Source: Alphaproteobacteria bacterium (GTDB lineage Bacteria; Pseudomonadota; Alphaproteobacteria; CAAHEQ01; UBA3637). From it: a stretch of 56,457 bases of DNA. Made by a program: the position numbers and the translations under genes. This document shows positions 1 through 56,456 of this stretch, piece by piece. The DNA is taken from the NCBI GenBank assembly GCA_015062385.1, contig SUUT01000009.1, positions 1 through 56,457 on the forward strand, given 5' to 3'. The stretch's first letter is position 1. Each line of letters starts with the position of its first letter. Under the pieces are notes generated by a model, which did not search any database, was not told the DNA's origin, and saw nothing but the letters and a program-made list of their open reading frames with translations.

Positions 1-3000
1 GAACAGCCTGCGTTTGTGATACAGACTATTATGGACCGAGTTGTGTCTATTGTGCGGGAGCCAATTCAAAATGGGATAGCACGAATAATAAATGTACGTG
101 TACATTAGCGAATAGCACATGGAACACCACACAAAATAAATGTATCTGTAATACGAATTATTACGGACCGAGTTGTACGTATTGTGCCGGCAATTACACA
201 AAATGGGACAGTACAAACAATAAGTGTACGTGTACGCAGACGAGCCGAGAATGGAATGCCAGTAAAAAAGCCTGTGTTTGTAAAACAGGGTATTATGGCG
301 ATAATTGTACCTATTGTGCGGGAACGAATGCCTCATGGGACAGTACGAATAAAAAATGTGTTTGTTCCAGTGGGTCATGGAGTGCTTCATCGAAAAAGTG
401 TGTGACAACAGAATCAACACAGGATACATGTTATGCTCCGAAAGTGTGGAGTGGGGGAAGTTGTAAAACGTGTTATCAGGTTAATAATGCTAAACCAAAT
501 TGGAATGGTTCAGCTTGTGCAGCTTGTCCAAGCGGTAAACCGTATTGGGATGGAACACAGTGTGTCGCAACGTGTCCGGCATCAAAACCGACATATGATT
601 CCAATAAAGTTTGTGTGACGTGTGCTAGTTTGGATTCAGCTAAACCATATTGGAACGGATCCAAATGCGTTGCCTGTTTAGATAACACACATTGTAAAGA
701 TAATTATTATTGCAATACATCCTCCACTTATGCGTGCGAAGAATTAAATTGTGATAAAATGGGATTTGAAACTCGCTCTTTCTATTGTAGTACTATAATT
801 TGGGATAATGATTCATTTGTTCCTTGGTTATATGTGAATAGACAATATTATACAGGAAGTGGAGATTGGACTAGAGTTCATGGATGTCGTAATTCTATTT
901 TAGTTGTTCCGCAAGATTTTCAGGGAAGTCTTGCTATGGGAAATTGTCGAGTTGGAACAGTTAAAATTGATGGGGTTGAATATAATTTAAATGGAACAAC
1001 ATATACTTTAAATCTTAAAAAAGGAATTCATAAAATTACTTTTGAAACACCACATGATAATAAAGGAAAAGAATGGTGTACAATTGATTTTCACAACACT
1101 CCGGGTTGGGATATTTGTATGCATTATAATGCAAGTTGTCCGGCAGGTTATTATTGTGAGCCTGACAAATTAAACCCTATTGTTTGTCCCACAGGACGAT
1201 ATTGTCCGGCAGGTGATAATTATTTTGGACCCAAAAAATGTTCAGCAGGGACCTATAATAATTTAAAGCAACAAGATGCACAAGCTGATTGTAAAAATTG
1301 TCCGGTTCATAATTATTGTCCGGAAGGATCCTCTAATCCGACAGCTTGTTCGAGTGGAATGTATTATCCGTTAACAAACGCAACACAATCTTCGCAATGC
1401 TTAAGTTGTAATACAACAACCATTACATACAACAGTATTCAAAATGCTTGTCATTTTTGTGATTCCCGATACTGGCGGAGTAGTGATGGAGCTTGCCTTT
1501 ATTGTGGTGATACAAATTATTATAACGGTATTACATCTGCCGAATGTATTCGGTGTACAAATAGATATTGGCGTTCGGATAATTACTGTTTTAATTGTAA
1601 TACGGTAGAAGCCCATAATAATGTCACACAAGCCCAATGTTTCCGCTGTTCCAATCGTTTTTGGCGGAGTAGTGGTAGTTATTGTGTTCATTGTAATCGA
1701 ACAGACACATGGGATACGACTAAACAGACGGAATGTGAACGGTGTACAAACAGATATTGGGTATTGTACGATTCAACAAATAAATATGGGTATTGTTATA
1801 AGTGTCCAGATGGGATGACTCGGGATTCTGCAACCGGCATTTGTACATGTCCAAGTGGACAAATATTCAGTCGGAATGAAAATAAATGTGTTGCTTGTAC
1901 ACAATCTGGTGAATTGTTATCTACACAAAAATCTAATGATGCCAGTTGTGGTGGTAAACGGTATTATGCTACAAATCAATATTCGTATTTGTGTACCAGA
2001 ACGGACCAAGTTCCGGCAACCAGTCAAACAGAGTGTTTCAGTTGTACCTCTGCAAAACGGCTTTGGAGAAGTGCTGATAAAGGATGTATTGCATGTAACG
2101 ATACAAGACATCACAACAGCATTACGCAAACTGAATGTGAACGGTGTACGAATCGATATTGGCGTTCGGATACTTATTGTTTAAGTTGTAATACGGTAGA
2201 TTATCAAGGAAGCACAACACAAGCCCAATGTTTCCGTTGTTCAAATCGTTTTTGGAGAAGTAATGGCAGTTATTGTGTGCACTGTAATGTTGACACATGG
2301 GATACAGTTAAACAAGCCGAATGTGAACGATGTACAAACAGATATTGGGTATTGTACGATTCAACAAATAAATATGGGTATTGTTATAAGTGTCCAGATG
2401 GGATGACTCGAGATTCTGAAACCGGCATTTGTACATGTCCAAGCGGACAAATATTCAGTCGGAATGAAAATAAATGTGTTGCTTGTACACAGTCTGCTGA
2501 ATTGCAATCAACCCAAAAGTCTAATGATACCAGTTGTGGTGGTACAAGATTCTATTCAACAAATCAATATTCGTATTTGTGTACTAGAAACGATCAATAT
2601 CCACAAACAAGTCAAGCAGAGTGTTTCAGTTGTACAAAAGCAACTCGTTTTTGGCGAAGTTCTGATAAAAAATGTATTGCTTGTAATGATTCAAATTATC
2701 ATAGTAGCGTAACACAAGCCGAATGTACAAGATGTTCTAACCGTTTCCATCGTTCAGCGGATAATTATTGTTTTAGTTGCAGTTCTAATGATTATTGGAA
2801 CAATTTCACGCAAGCAGAATGTCATCGTTGCTCTAATCGTTTTTGGAGAAGTGATGGGAAGTATTGCTTTAACTGTAATTCTACCGATTATTGGAATAGT
2901 TTTACACAGGCTGAATGTAACCGTTGCACTAATCGTTTCTATCGTTCATCGGATAAGTATTGTTTTAGCTGTAATCGGGCAGATTATCAGGAAAATGTAG

Positions 3001-3227
3001 CAAAATCACAATGCGATCGTTGTTCAAATCGTTTCCATAGAGCACATAATAATACGTGTATCAGTTGTAATGATGGCTCAACACATGCCAATACGACAAA
3101 AGCCGAATGTACGAGTAACTGTTCAAATCGTTATTGGAAAGTACACGATACAGCAAATCAGTTGGGATATTGTTATAAGTGTCCGGATGGTCAAAAGGCA
3201 AATAGCTCATTTACCGGTTGTCAATAG
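1..3227 (+). CDS. Giant Cys-rich repeat surface protein, 5' end outside window
   Basis: The reading frame (first full codon at base 3) is open from the left edge to the stop at 3225-3227, about 1,074 residues. The GTG at 402 is only an internal codon of this frame, so the gene starts outside the window. The product is extremely rich in Cys. Bases 1-390 encode EGF/laminin-like units of about 44 residues with the pattern YYGPSC-YCAG-WDSTNNKC. A segment at about 770-1140 is poor in Cys and looks beta-rich. The C-terminal two thirds consist of units of about 24 residues with motifs such as CSNRFWRS, YC--CN and TQAEC. The protein ends in a Cys-containing tail with no membrane anchor or sorting motif. 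By resemblance to the gene at 30472 I infer a prepilin-type N-terminus upstream, which cannot be seen here. Function is unknown; a secreted or surface adhesin or structural protein is likely. Confidence 0.85.
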   Translation, partial: TACVCDTDYYGPSCVYCAGANSKWDSTNNKCTCTLANSTWNTTQNKCICNTNYYGPSCTYCAGNYTKWDSTNNKCTCTQTSREWNASKKACVCKTGYYGDNCTYCAGTNASWDSTNKKCVCSSGSWSASSKKCVTTESTQDTCYAPKVWSGGSCKTCYQVNNAKPNWNGSACAACPSGKPYWDGTQCVATCPASKPTYDSNKVCVTCASLDSAKPYWNGSKCVACLDNTHCKDNYYCNTSSTYACEELNCDKMGFETRSFYCSTIIWDNDSFVPWLYVNRQYYTGSGDWTRVHGCRNSILVVPQDFQGSLAMGNCRVGTVKIDGVEYNLNGTTYTLNLKKGIHKITFETPHDNKGKEWCTIDFHNTPGWDICMHYNASCPAGYYCEPDKLNPIVCPTGRYCPAGDNYFGPKKCSAGTYNNLKQQDAQADCKNCPVHNYCPEGSSNPTACSSGMYYPLTNATQSSQCLSCNTTTITYNSIQNACHFCDSRYWRSSDGACLYCGDTNYYNGITSAECIRCTNRYWRSDNYCFNCNTVEAHNNVTQAQCFRCSNRFWRSSGSYCVHCNRTDTWDTTKQTECERCTNRYWVLYDSTNKYGYCYKCPDGMTRDSATGICTCPSGQIFSRNENKCVACTQSGELLSTQKSNDASCGGKRYYATNQYSYLCTRTDQVPATSQTECFSCTSAKRLWRSADKGCIACNDTRHHNSITQTECERCTNRYWRSDTYCLSCNTVDYQGSTTQAQCFRCSNRFWRSNGSYCVHCNVDTWDTVKQAECERCTNRYWVLYDSTNKYGYCYKCPDGMTRDSETGICTCPSGQIFSRNENKCVACTQSAELQSTQKSNDTSCGGTRFYSTNQYSYLCTRNDQYPQTSQAECFSCTKATRFWRSSDKKCIACNDSNYHSSVTQAECTRCSNRFHRSADNYCFSCSSNDYWNNFTQAECHRCSNRFWRSDGKYCFNCNSTDYWNSFTQAECNRCTNRFYRSSDKYCFSCNRADYQENVAKSQCDRCSNRFHRAHNNTCISCNDGSTHANTTKAECTSNCSNRYWKVHDTANQLGYCYKCPDGQKANSSFTGCQ
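1542..2720 (+). repeat. Tandem duplication of about 590 bp inside the Cys-rich gene
   Basis: Two adjacent in-frame copies, about 1542-2132 and 2133-2720. They are offset by 591 bp at the start and by 588 bp after a one-codon deletion. Long stretches are nearly identical, for example the segment encoding YWVLYDSTNKYGYCYKCPDG at about 1755 and 2343. Each copy encodes about 196 residues. The high nucleotide identity suggests recent duplication or gene conversion. Confidence 0.85.
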
Positions 3228-6996: not shown

Positions 6997-9051
6997 TTAA
7001 GAGGCAAATGGATCCTCCATTATTTCAAATCCATCCGGTGCCGGTCCTAAATATTCTTTTTTGTTACTGTTATCAATCATTCCTAACATTCTACGTGCTT
7101 CATCTGCATCCATTTCTTCATTGACTAGAGGAGAAATATCCGTCGGGGCATTATCATAAGCAACTTCCAAATCTTTTTCTAAGGCAACTAAGCGATTTTG
7201 TAAAAGTTGTAATCCGTTAGAGCGTTCAGCTTCCAATGCAGGATAGTATGCCGGAGAGGATAAAACTTCTTTAATGTCTTTTTGTACTTGTTCCATTACA
7301 TCAATTAAAAAACCGTATTGTTTGTATGCATATATTTCAATTTTTCCCAATTCAATACAGCGAGCCTCAATCCATGCATGAACCATATTGACAAAATCTA
7401 ATTGTTTAAATACTTTTCGTGCCATAAATTGTTCTTTTGTTTCTGGGATTTCGGGTACATATGTTTGTTTTTGACTGGTGTTTGTGTTCAAACTGTTGAT
7501 AGTGGGTATTCCAGTTGTATAATTGATATTTTCATTTAGGAATGCTTCCGGATTATACGATCCATTATTTGCTTTGTGGAGGTCCTCATTCGGACTGTAT
7601 CCCGCATTTGGAGTATATCCCCCGTTCGGATCATATCCTGCATTTGGCGTATATCCTCCGTTCGGATCATATCCTACATTTGGATTATATCCCACATTCG
7701 GATCATACTCAGCATTTGGATCATATTCCGTATTCGGGTCATATCCCCCGTTCGGGTCATATCCCCCGTTCGGGTCATATCCCCCGTTCGGGTCATATCC
7801 CCCGTTCGGGTCATATCCTACATTTGGATCATATTCCGTATTCGGGTCATATCCCCCGTTCGGGTCATATCCTACATTTGGATCATATCCTGCATTCGGG
7901 TTATATCCCGCATTCGGGTCATATCCCGCATTCGGATCATATCCAGTATTCGGGTCATATCCAGTATTCGGGTCATATCCCGCATTCGGGTCATATTCCG
8001 CATTCGGATCATACCCAGTATTCGGGTCATATCCTACATTCGGATTATATTCCGTATTCGGATCATACCCAGCATTCGGGTCATATTCGGCATTTTGAAT
8101 GTAATTTATAGTTTGACTATTTTGTTCATTTTTTTGTTCAACGGGGTTTTCTTGGAATAGAACATTAGATGATTCTTTTGAGGATATAGGAATTTTTGGA
8201 ATGATAGGGATATGAGATGCTTGCGTATCTTGTTGTTTACTTGTTTCTGTGTTTAGAGGAGTGATATCTTCCGATATAATATCATTTTCTTCTTGAGAAA
8301 TAGGGATTTCTTGAATTTGTTCATTGGCAGGTATTTCTGTTTCTTGTTTTTCTATTTCGGTTTCATTAATGATTTCCTGTATAATGTTGTTATTTTCAAA
8401 AGAAATTGAATTTTCTACATCTGATGATTGTATATTCAATGGTTGATTGACCGATATATCATTTGTTAAGTCTTCGTCCGTATGTTCAATGATATCAACA
8501 ATATTATCAGCAATATCTATTGGTTGTTCTGAAACATCTGATTCATGTAAGATATCAACAGTATCATTTTCAGATATGTTTGTATTCGGGACATCTGTGT
8601 TTGCTGTTTCTTCATTTGAATCAATTACTGATGGTGTTTCTTCTTGTGTAGGAGCAGTTAGAGAAATATCCGGTTGTGATTTTGTTTCTGATGCGGCGAT
8701 TGTTTTTAATTTTTCACGTAACTGTGTAATGATGGCGGTTCCGTTTTCGCCAAAAAAATTTAACCAATATTCTAATGTTGGTATTCTGTCTTCAATATCA
8801 GATATGTTGAGTGGTTCTGTTTGTGTTAAATATTCTTGAACTTCACCCCAAGCCATGGTTGCCCCATAATAATGGTAGGCGTGGTCCAGTTTTTCTTTTA
8901 ATTCGGGGACCAAGTCGGGTAATTCATCGTAAATGCGGCTAACCCAGTTTTCTCCGATTTCTTCGGTAGCAACGGCAATAAAGGCGGCTAGAGAATCTTG
9001 TTCGCCTGTATAAGTTGTTAAAGCATCCATTAATCTGATTTTATTTGTCAT
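6997..9051 (-). CDS. Acidic protein with about 28 YDPNxG hexapeptide repeats
   Basis: 684 residues. An N-terminal helical domain (about 1-125, rich in Trp and Leu) is followed by a long acidic Glu/Asp/Ile/Asn/Thr-rich linker (about 125-320). Residues 323-490 hold about 28 tandem hexapeptides of the form Y-D/N/T-P-N-x-G/E, then a helical C-terminal domain (about 545-684) containing MVHAWIEARCIELGKIEIYA and ending in EIMEDPFAS. There is no signal peptide or membrane segment, so it is probably cytoplasmic unless exported by another route. It is transcribed 11 bp after the 9063-10883 gene, which has a similar plan: helical domain, acidic repeat region, other end domain. The function is unknown; the layout suggests a scaffold or length-measuring protein within this operon, as inference. 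Confidence 0.75.
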   Translation of the reverse strand: MTNKIRLMDALTTYTGEQDSLAAFIAVATEEIGENWVSRIYDELPDLVPELKEKLDHAYHYYGATMAWGEVQEYLTQTEPLNISDIEDRIPTLEYWLNFFGENGTAIITQLREKLKTIAASETKSQPDISLTAPTQEETPSVIDSNEETANTDVPNTNISENDTVDILHESDVSEQPIDIADNIVDIIEHTDEDLTNDISVNQPLNIQSSDVENSISFENNNIIQEIINETEIEKQETEIPANEQIQEIPISQEENDIISEDITPLNTETSKQQDTQASHIPIIPKIPISSKESSNVLFQENPVEQKNEQNSQTINYIQNAEYDPNAGYDPNTEYNPNVGYDPNTGYDPNAEYDPNAGYDPNTGYDPNTGYDPNAGYDPNAGYNPNAGYDPNVGYDPNGGYDPNTEYDPNVGYDPNGGYDPNGGYDPNGGYDPNGGYDPNTEYDPNAEYDPNVGYNPNVGYDPNGGYTPNAGYDPNGGYTPNAGYSPNEDLHKANNGSYNPEAFLNENINYTTGIPTINSLNTNTSQKQTYVPEIPETKEQFMARKVFKQLDFVNMVHAWIEARCIELGKIEIYAYKQYGFLIDVMEQVQKDIKEVLSSPAYYPALEAERSNGLQLLQNRLVALEKDLEVAYDNAPTDISPLVNEEMDADEARRMLGMIDNSNKKEYLGPAPDGFEIMEDPFAS
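7582..8085 (-). repeat. 18-bp tandem repeat array (about 28 copies)
   Basis: About 28 head-to-tail 18-bp units encode YDPNxG/E on the minus strand. Four consecutive units near 7741-7812 are identical at DNA level, so copy-number change by slippage or recombination is plausible and would always preserve the frame. The periodicity also keeps all three plus-strand frames open; those long opposite-strand ORFs are artefacts. Confidence 0.9.
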
Positions 9052-9062
9052 AATTTATTCCT

Positions 9063-10883
9063 TTATAAATCGATTTTGTTCAATGGTGTTGCCGGTACAT
9101 CCGTTTCAGAGTCATTCGTATCGGTGATGTGTGAAGCAATTTTTTGGGGGAATCCTTTGGGCATTGGGGGGATAGATCCAAACATCTTGGGTATTTTAGG
9201 TAAAGTACCGAATGGAGGAGGCGGTAATGGAATCCCTTTGTTTTGTGTTGGTTTAAATGTTGGAATGCTGTTTGGAATGGGCGGAGTGAAATTTATGTTT
9301 TGGGTTTCTGTATTAGGTATGTCCAGAGAGAATTGTACATCAGTTTGTTCCTTTACAATCGATTCGGTTGTTGTTTCAGAAATGTTACTATCTATAATTG
9401 TCGTTGCTTCTTCAACGTTATATTCCATTGGTTCGATAGATTCGGTTATAACATCCGATTCGGGGTTTGTAATAATACTCATATTGTCATCAGTCAATGA
9501 GCCCTCAGAGTTATATTCCATTGGTTCGATAGATTCGGTTATAACATCCGATTCGGGGTTTGTAACAATACTCATATTGTCATCAGTCAATGAGCCCTCA
9601 GAGTTATATTCCGTTGGTTCGGTAGATTCGGTTATAACATCCGATTCAGGGGTTGTGATAACATTCATATTGTCATTAGTCAATGTATCCTCAGAGTTAT
9701 ATTCCGTTGGTTCGATAGATTCGGTTATAACATCCGATTCGGGGTTTGTAACAATACTCATATTGTCATCAGTCAATGAGCCCTCAGAGTTATATTCCGT
9801 TGGTTCGGTAGATTCGGTTATAATATCCGATTCGGGGGTTGTGATAACATTCATATTGTCATCAGTCAATGTATCCTCAGAGTTATATTCCGTTGGTTCA
9901 GTAGATTCGGTTATAACATCCAATTCGGGGTTTGTAACAATACTCATATTGTCATCAATTAATGTATCCTCAGAGTTATATTCCGTTGGTTCGGTAGATT
10001 CGGTTATAATATCCGATTCGGGGTCTGAACCATTTATATCAATATCTATTGGGGTTTCTTCAAAGATATCTGTTGTTTCTGTATTATTTGAATCTGTATT
10101 TTGAATTAATGATTCAGTTTCAATTTGATAATGTTTTCTTTCAGATTGAATGGTATCAGTTGGTTTTGCTATAACAGATGTCATTTGTGCAGCAAGTTGT
10201 TCTGAAAGTGTTTTTGCAAACTGTATAAATGTATCATTTTGAGCTTTAATTATTTTTTGCAAAAATTGTTCTTGTGATATTTTCCATCGTTCAAAGTCTT
10301 GAATGGATATATTTGATGTATTTGCAGTTTCTTTTAAACCGGAAACATTTTTATTTATTTGTTCTTTTAAAGTATTTAGTGTTTCGTTTAAAATGGTTGT
10401 TTGATGTTGATTGCTTTCTTGCATTGTTTTCATTGTCTGTGCAATCAAGTCCATTTGTCCCAAGGAGGATTCCGATGTGTTTCCTTCATTTGAAATTGAT
10501 TGCCTGACAATTGGGGCAAATATTGGGAGTTCATCATCCGGAGCGGGTAAGTATCCGTCATTTCCCGTAATAACAGAATTGGCTTGTTGCTCTCCATTTG
10601 TATTTTCATCAACCGATTCATTTAGTGTTTTCCGCAAAAATTCTAAATATTGTCGTACGGTTGGTCCTCCCACAATATCTTTCATCATCATTAATTCTTC
10701 ATCGCTTGCAGCCAATAATAATTTATTGTATTCCGCAACAAATTCCGGCTTAAATGCACTGATTTGTCGGAATTGGTTAACTAATCTTTGTGCATTTAAA
10801 GCCGAAGTATTATCTAATGTTACTTTACGGTTAACAAATGCATTCAAAATTTGATTGGCTGAGTCAAGAGATTCTGAACTCAT
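9063..10883 (-). CDS. Acidic protein with 31-residue tandem repeats and Pro-rich tail
   Basis: 606 residues. The N-terminal domain (about 1-95) is helical. A central stretch (about 140-240) is predicted coiled-coil-like (NQHQTTILNETLNTLKEQ). From residue 288 there are six full 31-residue repeats plus a partial seventh with the consensus PESDVITEST-EPTEYNSE-DTLTDDNM, strongly acidic. The C-terminal region is proline-rich (GIPLPPPPFGTLPKIPKMFG) with several PxxP-like motifs and a basic end. No signal peptide is visible. A GAAAGGA ribosome site precedes the ATG. It is the second gene of the putative operon, 17 bp after the regulator. No family recognised; coiled coil, acidic repeats and polyproline suggest a flexible scaffold. 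Confidence 0.75.
   Translation of the reverse strand: MSSESLDSANQILNAFVNRKVTLDNTSALNAQRLVNQFRQISAFKPEFVAEYNKLLLAASDEELMMMKDIVGGPTVRQYLEFLRKTLNESVDENTNGEQQANSVITGNDGYLPAPDDELPIFAPIVRQSISNEGNTSESSLGQMDLIAQTMKTMQESNQHQTTILNETLNTLKEQINKNVSGLKETANTSNISIQDFERWKISQEQFLQKIIKAQNDTFIQFAKTLSEQLAAQMTSVIAKPTDTIQSERKHYQIETESLIQNTDSNNTETTDIFEETPIDIDINGSDPESDIITESTEPTEYNSEDTLIDDNMSIVTNPELDVITESTEPTEYNSEDTLTDDNMNVITTPESDIITESTEPTEYNSEGSLTDDNMSIVTNPESDVITESIEPTEYNSEDTLTNDNMNVITTPESDVITESTEPTEYNSEGSLTDDNMSIVTNPESDVITESIEPMEYNSEGSLTDDNMSIITNPESDVITESIEPMEYNVEEATTIIDSNISETTTESIVKEQTDVQFSLDIPNTETQNINFTPPIPNSIPTFKPTQNKGIPLPPPPFGTLPKIPKMFGSIPPMPKGFPQKIASHITDTNDSETDVPATPLNKIDL
9465..10022 (-). repeat. 93-bp tandem repeats, six full copies plus a partial
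   Basis: Six in-frame 93-bp units (31 codons) lie at 9465-10022, with a seventh partial unit running on to about 9400. Units alternate between two subtypes (NSEGSL-DDNMSIVTN and NSEDTL-DDNMNVITT), indicating duplication of a two-unit block. Confidence 0.85.
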
Positions 10884-30151: not shown

Positions 30152-30276
30152 TGTGTGATGTCCTTGTTTTTTGATTAAGTAGCTTCTTTTTACTTGAAAT
30201 CAATAGGAAGGTCAAGAAATATTAAAAATAAAGTTGTTTTGAATGAATAGATTAATTTTGAATAGTACGAGAGGAT

Positions 30277-30401
30277 AAAAAAGGGACGTATAAATGCAAC
30301 CATTTTTTTCACTTTTTTGTATTTTTTTTAATTTTAATTAAATAATTCAAATAAAACAATAATCTTTCATTTTTTTTAGAAACCGATTTTGCTGATTCGA
30401 A
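30277..30401 (+). repeat. 125-bp dispersed noncoding element, copy A
   Basis: Begins with A6 and ACGTATAAATGCAAC, continues through T- and A-rich blocks, and ends with CTGATTCGAA. Copy B at 56332-56456 has exactly the same length; by hand, ungapped, about 98 of 125 bases agree, with 23 of the first 24. Copy A lies 70 bp before the ATG of the giant prepilin-like gene. It sits in a 320-bp noncoding gap (30152-30471), whose remainder upstream of the element shows nothing else recognisable. It may be a promoter/leader or a recombination site. Confidence 0.75.
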
Positions 30402-30448
30402 GCGGGAAAAAAAGGTCCCTTTTGTTACACTCACTTTATAAATGCAAC
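30279..30448. repeat. Inverted and direct repeats bracketing copy A
   Basis: AAAAGGGAC at 30279-30287 is the exact reverse complement of GTCCCTTTT at 30415-30423. TATAAATGCAAC occurs as a direct repeat at 30289-30300 and again at 30437-30448, 148 bp apart. Such paired repeats could mark recombination ends, or a tandem promoter. Confidence 0.6.
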
Positions 30449-30471
30449 TTTATAATTGTGAGGAGAAGATT

Positions 30472-56262: not shown

Positions 56263-56331
56263 TGATATTTGAAAAACTTTTTTTTAGATTATTTCGTTAT
56301 TTAGATAAACAATAATTTTCCTATTGCTATA

Positions 56332-56456
56332 AAAAAAGGTACGTATAAATGCAACAATTTTTTACACATTTTGGTAAATTTTTTAATTTTGTATAAGGCA
56401 TTCAATTAAAAGAAGAAACTTCCATTTTATCAAAAATCTGATTCTGCCAATTCGAA
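56332..56456 (+). repeat. 125-bp dispersed noncoding element, copy B
   Basis: Same length and order of blocks as copy A (30277-30401): A6, ACGTATAAATGCAAC, T-rich and A-rich blocks, final ATTCGAA. The window ends one base later. By analogy with copy A, I predict that a prepilin-headed Cys-rich gene begins within about 100 bp beyond the right edge. Confidence 0.75.

Follow-up and report, generated by a model that had tools for sequence, protein, structure and literature searches.

Which function could keep a 125-bp noncoding sequence alike, without a single gap, at two distant places of one contig? The question is raised by the window analysed here, i.e. the whole stretch of 56,457 nucleotides, where one copy (copy A) lies just upstream of a large gene encoding a prepilin-like, Cys-rich protein and the other (copy B) stops at the contig end. 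A preliminary description had counted by hand an ungapped match of about 98/125 positions between the two, a count borne out at exactly 98/125 by the present analysis, in which both copies were also recovered as a repeat family (D10, 78%). Two readings were offered at the time, namely a shared promoter or leader RNA for a family of surface proteins, or a recombination site exchanging their genes.

Copy number and boundaries of the element

The genome to which the window belongs (G000) is a fragmented gut Alphaproteobacteria MAG of 1,812,063 bases in 45 contigs. Across these 1.81 Mb, the core motif ACGTATAAATGCAAC was matched 120 times with at most 2 mismatches, against 5 times for the reversed control, and the 3' motif GGGAAAAAAAGGTNCCTTTT 140 times with at most 3 mismatches, against 0 for the control. 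In the stretches around the copies, 104 two-ended matches were recorded, which amount to 102 copies once 2 duplicate registers are removed; the genome-wide search for further copies advocated in the preliminary description thus yielded about 100, nearly all beside prepilin-like, Cys-rich genes. Contigs of G000 often break within the element (e.g. C2:56457, C12:1-110, C13:1-120 and C19:1-110), which its copy number, and possibly mixed orientations, would lead one to expect.

Counted from the anchor ACGTATAAATGCAAC, the conserved unit extends from about -17 (TATCTGY) to about +147 (..CCCTTTTATTACACTC), column conservation setting in abruptly at -17 and fading past +147, and the 125 bp first delimited were slightly short, the unit spanning about 30269-30432 in copy A. 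From the anchor to GGGAAAAAAAGG, the spacing is exactly 118 in 93/102 copies. Chance or recent duplication alone was discarded as an explanation in view of the copy number relative to the reversed-pattern controls and of the sharp boundaries, mean pairwise identity being 0.32 in the upstream flanks and rising inside to 0.89 at the far site, 0.82 in the interior and 0.94 at the gene-side site (0.48 in the 5' untranslated region).

Genes adjoining the element

As many as 92 of the 102 two-ended copies adjoin a gene with a prepilin motif (of the GRSMVEMLGVLAVIGVLS type), in which a GxxxxE cleavage motif, cut after the G, is followed by a hydrophobic stretch; the proposal that the element is common to a family of prepilin-like, Cys-rich genes is thereby upheld. 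When the whole 721-aa protein encoded in the window was compared with Pfam and NCBIfam, no curated pilin family was matched, and no relative of the prepilin-like gene was found among the viral contigs searched. Regarding the other 10/102 copies, several lie where a contig stops and a few stand before genes of another kind. Switch copies before genes devoid of the prepilin motif include those at L066 (+, 700), L123 (+, 700) and L141 (-, 686) of G000, where the product is thymidylate-kinase-like, bears a signal peptide at its N-terminus, or is ankyrin-repeat-like, respectively. Besides, a longer switch, with a spacing of 142 instead of 118, precedes a distinct group of short prepilins (MKKNESGRSMVEMLGV...) at orthologous loci of G000 (L065 (+, 700) and L084 (+, 672 and 2672)) and of the sister species G023 (L216 and L232).

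Elsewhere in the window, positions 1-3227 hold a Cys-rich frame that contains internal repeats and is truncated by the window start; it may be the end of a further large protein of the Cys-rich family. Two neighbouring reverse-strand frames bear tandem repeats, one of 18-bp units at 7529-8176 (23 registers) and the other of 93-bp units at 9307-10143 (7 registers).

Probable crossover sites and covariation of their core

The ends of the element form an inverted repeat, AAAAGGNAC...GTNCCTTTT, within a pair of 26-bp sites (12+2+12; Table 1). In 101/101 copies, the paired sites agree at the first core base, when composition alone predicts an agreement of 0.58; the core types are 72 GA, 27 TA and 2 AA, and every one of the 29 departures at the core base (29/29) is matched in the partner site. 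At the remaining site positions, agreement is close to that expected from composition, changes in the arms occurring without compensation. RNAalifold independently returned the same picture, with double changes at the core pair (10/30) and at none of the other pairs. The Hin/Gin-type serine invertases act on 26-bp sites whose 2-bp overlap has to be identical for strands to be exchanged, and the confinement of covariation to the core is explained by just such a 2-bp recombination overlap and not by an RNA helix.

Table 1. Location of the features of copy A and copy B in the window
Feature	Position	Strand	Remark
Copy A, far crossover site, 26 bp (12-bp arm, GA core 30285-30286, 12-bp arm)	30273..30298		Inverted repeat AAAAGGNAC/GTNCCTTTT
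Copy A, putative invertible segment between crossover cores, 132 bp core base to core base	30287..30415		Assembled in predicted OFF orientation
-35 hexamer TTGCAT within segment, A-tracts upstream of hexamer	30294..30299	-	Currently points away from gene
Copy A, gene-side crossover site, 26 bp, core TC at 30416-30417	30404..30429		
-10 hexamer TACACT, fixed, gene side, outside segment	30426..30431	+	
Ribosome-binding site AGGAG	30461..30465	+	Seen in sequence
Gene predicted to be controlled, Cys-rich prepilin-like protein MRIKLNEHGRSMVEILGVLAIIGILS..., 721 aa	30472..32637	+	
Copy B, far site (56328-56353, core TA) and interior	56328..56457		Gene-side site and gene lost at contig end

These data bear directly on the nature of the complementary ends. 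Strong conservation, a fixed length and ends that are complementary, and indeed paired by RNAalifold, would also be expected from a cis-acting leader RNA, or from a static promoter copied along with the gene family, the terminal inverted repeat being then an RNA stem. Yet a single base pair covaries, at the core, with the arm changes left uncompensated; the consensus fold is weak (-3.7 kcal/mol); and the interior occurs in both orientations (see below), which an RNA would not tolerate. The search for a conserved RNA structure by covariance, as put forward in the preliminary description, therefore disclosed double changes at the crossover core only together with a weak fold, and at gathering thresholds no known RNA family of Rfam was matched in the whole window. 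The leader RNA was rejected on the core-restricted covariation and the inverted interiors, and it is hard to give this reading any appreciable credence. From the initial suggestion of a shared promoter or leader RNA, the promoter is retained and the leader RNA abandoned, since covariation is restricted to the crossover core and transcription is predicted to start beyond the element, on its downstream side.

Orientation of the interior

Among the gene-linked copies, 87 have the gene on the GGGAAAAAAAGG side and 5 have it on the TTGCA side (L068, L069, L079, L094 and L107 of G000). At these five minority loci the gene keeps its own ATTACACTC- or TATAAT-type flank, and the interior is therefore inverted relative to the gene. 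For copies elsewhere with a far flank of the copy B type, the gene is on the right. In G023, 46 motif matches were found, both orientations being again present. At three loci whose far flanks are orthologous between G000 and G023 (about 93, 89 and 88% identical), the interiors stand in opposite orientations, as they match at 104/127, 106/127 and 108/127 positions in reverse complement but at 67/148, 68/159 and 61/145 when compared directly; with one genome per species, the evidence for both orientations comes from paralogous loci and from loci compared between species.

A predicted promoter split by the gene-side site

Reading outward from the TTGCA end, the hexamer found after N17 conforms to TAnnnT in 92/92 gene-side flanks of G000 (including TACACT 49, TATAAT 22 and TATACT 15) as against 2/92 far-side flanks, and likewise in 27/27 gene-side and 0/27 far-side flanks of G023. 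The -35 reads TTGCAT or TTGCAA in 91/92 copies of G000 and is present at one end of the segment only; TTGCAT is a partial match to the consensus TTGACA. With the segment in the majority orientation, CGGGAA or AGGGAA occupies the -35 position next to the gene instead. Since the minority orientation completes a promoter and the majority orientation does not, the former is predicted to be ON and the latter OFF, whereby 5/92 gene-linked switches would be ON in the G000 assembly and about 95% OFF.

Were an alternative sigma factor to recognise GGGAAA at the -35 position, the inversion would still be real and the majority orientation would be the ON state, a view favoured by the near invariance of GGGAAAAAAAGG beside the -10 in that orientation. 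This invariance is however explained by GGGAAAAAAAGG forming half of the 26-bp crossover site; furthermore, just 2/92 far flanks place a -10 opposite the -35 end, which is what a need for silence at that end would produce, and sister species with other repeats keep the -35 block and not GGGAAA, so that a reversed assignment appears very unlikely.

With the anatomy of the element, its copy number, its association with one type of gene, its occurrence in both orientations, the covariation of its core and the asymmetry of its promoter all observed by comparison of sequences, the 125-bp repeat is very probably the body of an invertible promoter switch, present in about 100 copies, mostly OFF, before prepilin-like genes. 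From the sequences we further infer active flipping, transcription, the identity of the enzyme and a benefit to the cell. In the proposed mechanism, two inverted 26-bp sites with a matching 2-bp core in each copy (GA, TA or AA) would flank a segment carrying the -35 with its A-tracts at one end, the -10, the ribosome-binding site and the prepilin-like gene being fixed outside. Inversion of the segment would fall to a site-specific recombinase, most probably the only intact Mpi-family serine invertase, which lies beside dnaA. Inversion to ON would assemble TTGCA[T/A]-N17-TA(C/T)A(C/A)T before the gene; in the OFF state, the -35 would face the far flank, which lacks a usable -10, and the gene side would present [C/A]GGGAA at the -35 position.

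Candidate recombinases

One intact Mpi-type serine invertase is encoded in G000 (C26:78020, 250 aa), beside dnaA, with Mpi-type remnants at C42 and C3. It scores 271.3 bits against NCBIfam NF009949 (Mpi family), for a cut-off of 272 (E 4.7e-81), contains a resolvase catalytic domain (PF00239, E 2.3e-30), in which an RVSS motif aligns with the RVS serine of the solved DNA invertase 4m6f, and exhibits a C-terminal helix-turn-helix (HTH_38) that falls below its own cut-off. Its dnaA-hsp20 neighbourhood is the same in the sister species G025, G026 and G027, and the relatives that bear the invertase in the GTDB collection are for the most part MAGs of gut Alphaproteobacteria, with rabbit and sheep among the sources. 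G023 carries the same sites as G000, and the search of its 310-contig draft for a close orthologue of the dnaA-locus Mpi returned none, the best homologues being at about 60% and 56%. As G023 shows only these more distant homologues, we infer the link between enzyme and sites rather than regard it as settled, and the Mpi-family invertase beside dnaA is most likely the enzyme that flips the segments. An Mpi-family invertase is also found intact at C170:3603 of G023 (L303) and without its N-terminus at C42:49179 of G000 (L306), both corresponding to the same locus, adjoining NUDIX-like and GNAT-like genes.

The same invertible promoter could instead be flipped by a FimB-like tyrosine recombinase, for which two proteins qualify (193 aa at C12:131553 and 198 aa at C12:71102), both stand-alone, of the size of FimB/FimE and weakly similar to tyrosine-type DNA invertases. 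Their distribution across the genus weakened them as first candidates. An intact version of the 193-aa protein, 92-96% identical, occurs in G020 and G024, both devoid of the element, and the element-bearing G023 yielded only fragments of it; the 198-aa protein is without close relatives elsewhere in the genus. Besides, the overlap is of 2 bp in serine recombinases and of 6-8 bp in tyrosine recombinases, and the one-base covariation better fits the former, making a tyrosine recombinase the less likely enzyme, with a chance that is still worth keeping in mind.

Gene exchange near the element

Behind most of the about 20 far flanks of G023 that are orthologous to those of G000, a different gene body follows, and the junctions between G000 and G023 gene bodies fall at the element or in the conserved N-terminus; a few shared far flanks keep the same gene body (84-99%). 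Different gene bodies behind shared flanks imply that the repertoire has been reshuffled between species at or near the element. The element could on this account be chiefly a mobile or cassette-exchange site swapping whole genes between loci. Nevertheless, the swaps are equally well accounted for by homologous recombination within the conserved stretch of leader and N-terminus, and cassette exchange leaves the promoter asymmetry and the in-place inversion unexplained, so that this role as the chief one is improbable. The initial idea of a recombination site is consequently kept, with in-place inversion rather than gene exchange as its main action; exchange is seen between species and may have come about through the invertase or through homologous recombination.

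Probable switches in sister species

The number of prepilin-like genes per genome is 103 in G000, 90 in G027, 78 in G028, 49 in G023, 32 in both G021 and G026, 17 in G025 and 9-11 in G020, G022 and G024. At the loci examined in five sister species (G025-G028 and G021), the same layout is encountered with other inverted repeats before the prepilin genes (e.g. AAATAAACGTAC, TCAGTATAAATTAAACGTAGGT and TGTCAAAAAAACGTCCCTTTTTT), and the -35 block AAAAAAAGTGTTGCAA is kept in four of them (G025-G028). Among the copies listed, AAAAGTGTTGCAA is followed by TAnnnT at N17 in 4/16 cases for G025, 5/30 for G026 and 6/53 for G027, from which most switches would be OFF there too. The loci L325-L327, L335-L337 and L345-L347, assigned by elimination to the low-copy genomes G020, G022 and G024, display mostly ordinary TTGACA-type promoters without a comparable inverted repeat.

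Comparison with known systems

As in Bacteroides fragilis, where Mpi controls 13 regions (PMC4747536), a master serine invertase, here a candidate, would act on many dispersed invertible promoters of surface genes. The differences lie in the number of sites (about 100 against 13), in the genes served (a single pilin-like family and not capsule operons), in the splitting of the promoter, whose -10 stays outside the segment, and in the host, an alphaproteobacterium. Short inverted repeats around a flippable promoter near surface genes are also a feature of the invertons detected with PhaseFinder and PhaseFinderDC, for which a survey of 125 strains gave medians of 8.5-14 per genome in inverton-rich phyla, counted at most 181 in a single genome, all kinds taken together, and found repeat-homology groups to comprise 2-72 members (PMC11892184). 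What sets the present case apart is that a single repeat type accounts for about 100 copies in 1.8 Mb, almost all of them in front of members of one gene family.

The fimS switch of E. coli is a single locus, served by a tyrosine recombinase and holding the whole promoter inside the segment, whereas about 100 loci with a split promoter are found here. The Vpma genes of Mycoplasma agalactiae are clustered, in contrast to the about 100 dispersed genes each endowed with its own switch. What is shared with fimS and FimB-FimE is in-place promoter inversion and the control of pili, a 314-bp segment being flipped by FimB (PMC9993118); what is shared with Vpma is a surface protein family varied by site-specific recombination, through Xer1 (PMC5634654). 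In the open literature searched, no split invertible promoter and no such system in this lineage was found. The kind of system is thus already known from invertons and Mpi, and its scale, its split promoter and its lineage appear to be new.

Significance

The single covarying core base provides a clean and reusable signature separating recombination sites from RNA stems. Since the promoter is split, the predicted ON or OFF state can be read from the assembled sequence alone, and metagenomes already available could be surveyed for expression states.

In this gut lineage, uncultured and little known, about 100 mostly OFF switches would let each cell show a changing, small subset of a large repertoire of surface proteins, with evasion of host immunity or of phage, or changing adhesion, as a possible benefit. 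More tentatively, and with doubt outweighing confidence, antigenic variation could be genus-wide, with one master invertase, about 100 one-gene switches nearly all OFF for a single Cys-rich, pilin-like family, and elements that also serve as junctions for gene reshuffling between loci. The promoter-inversion repertoire described here would be among the largest of a single type known, devoted to one surface protein family.
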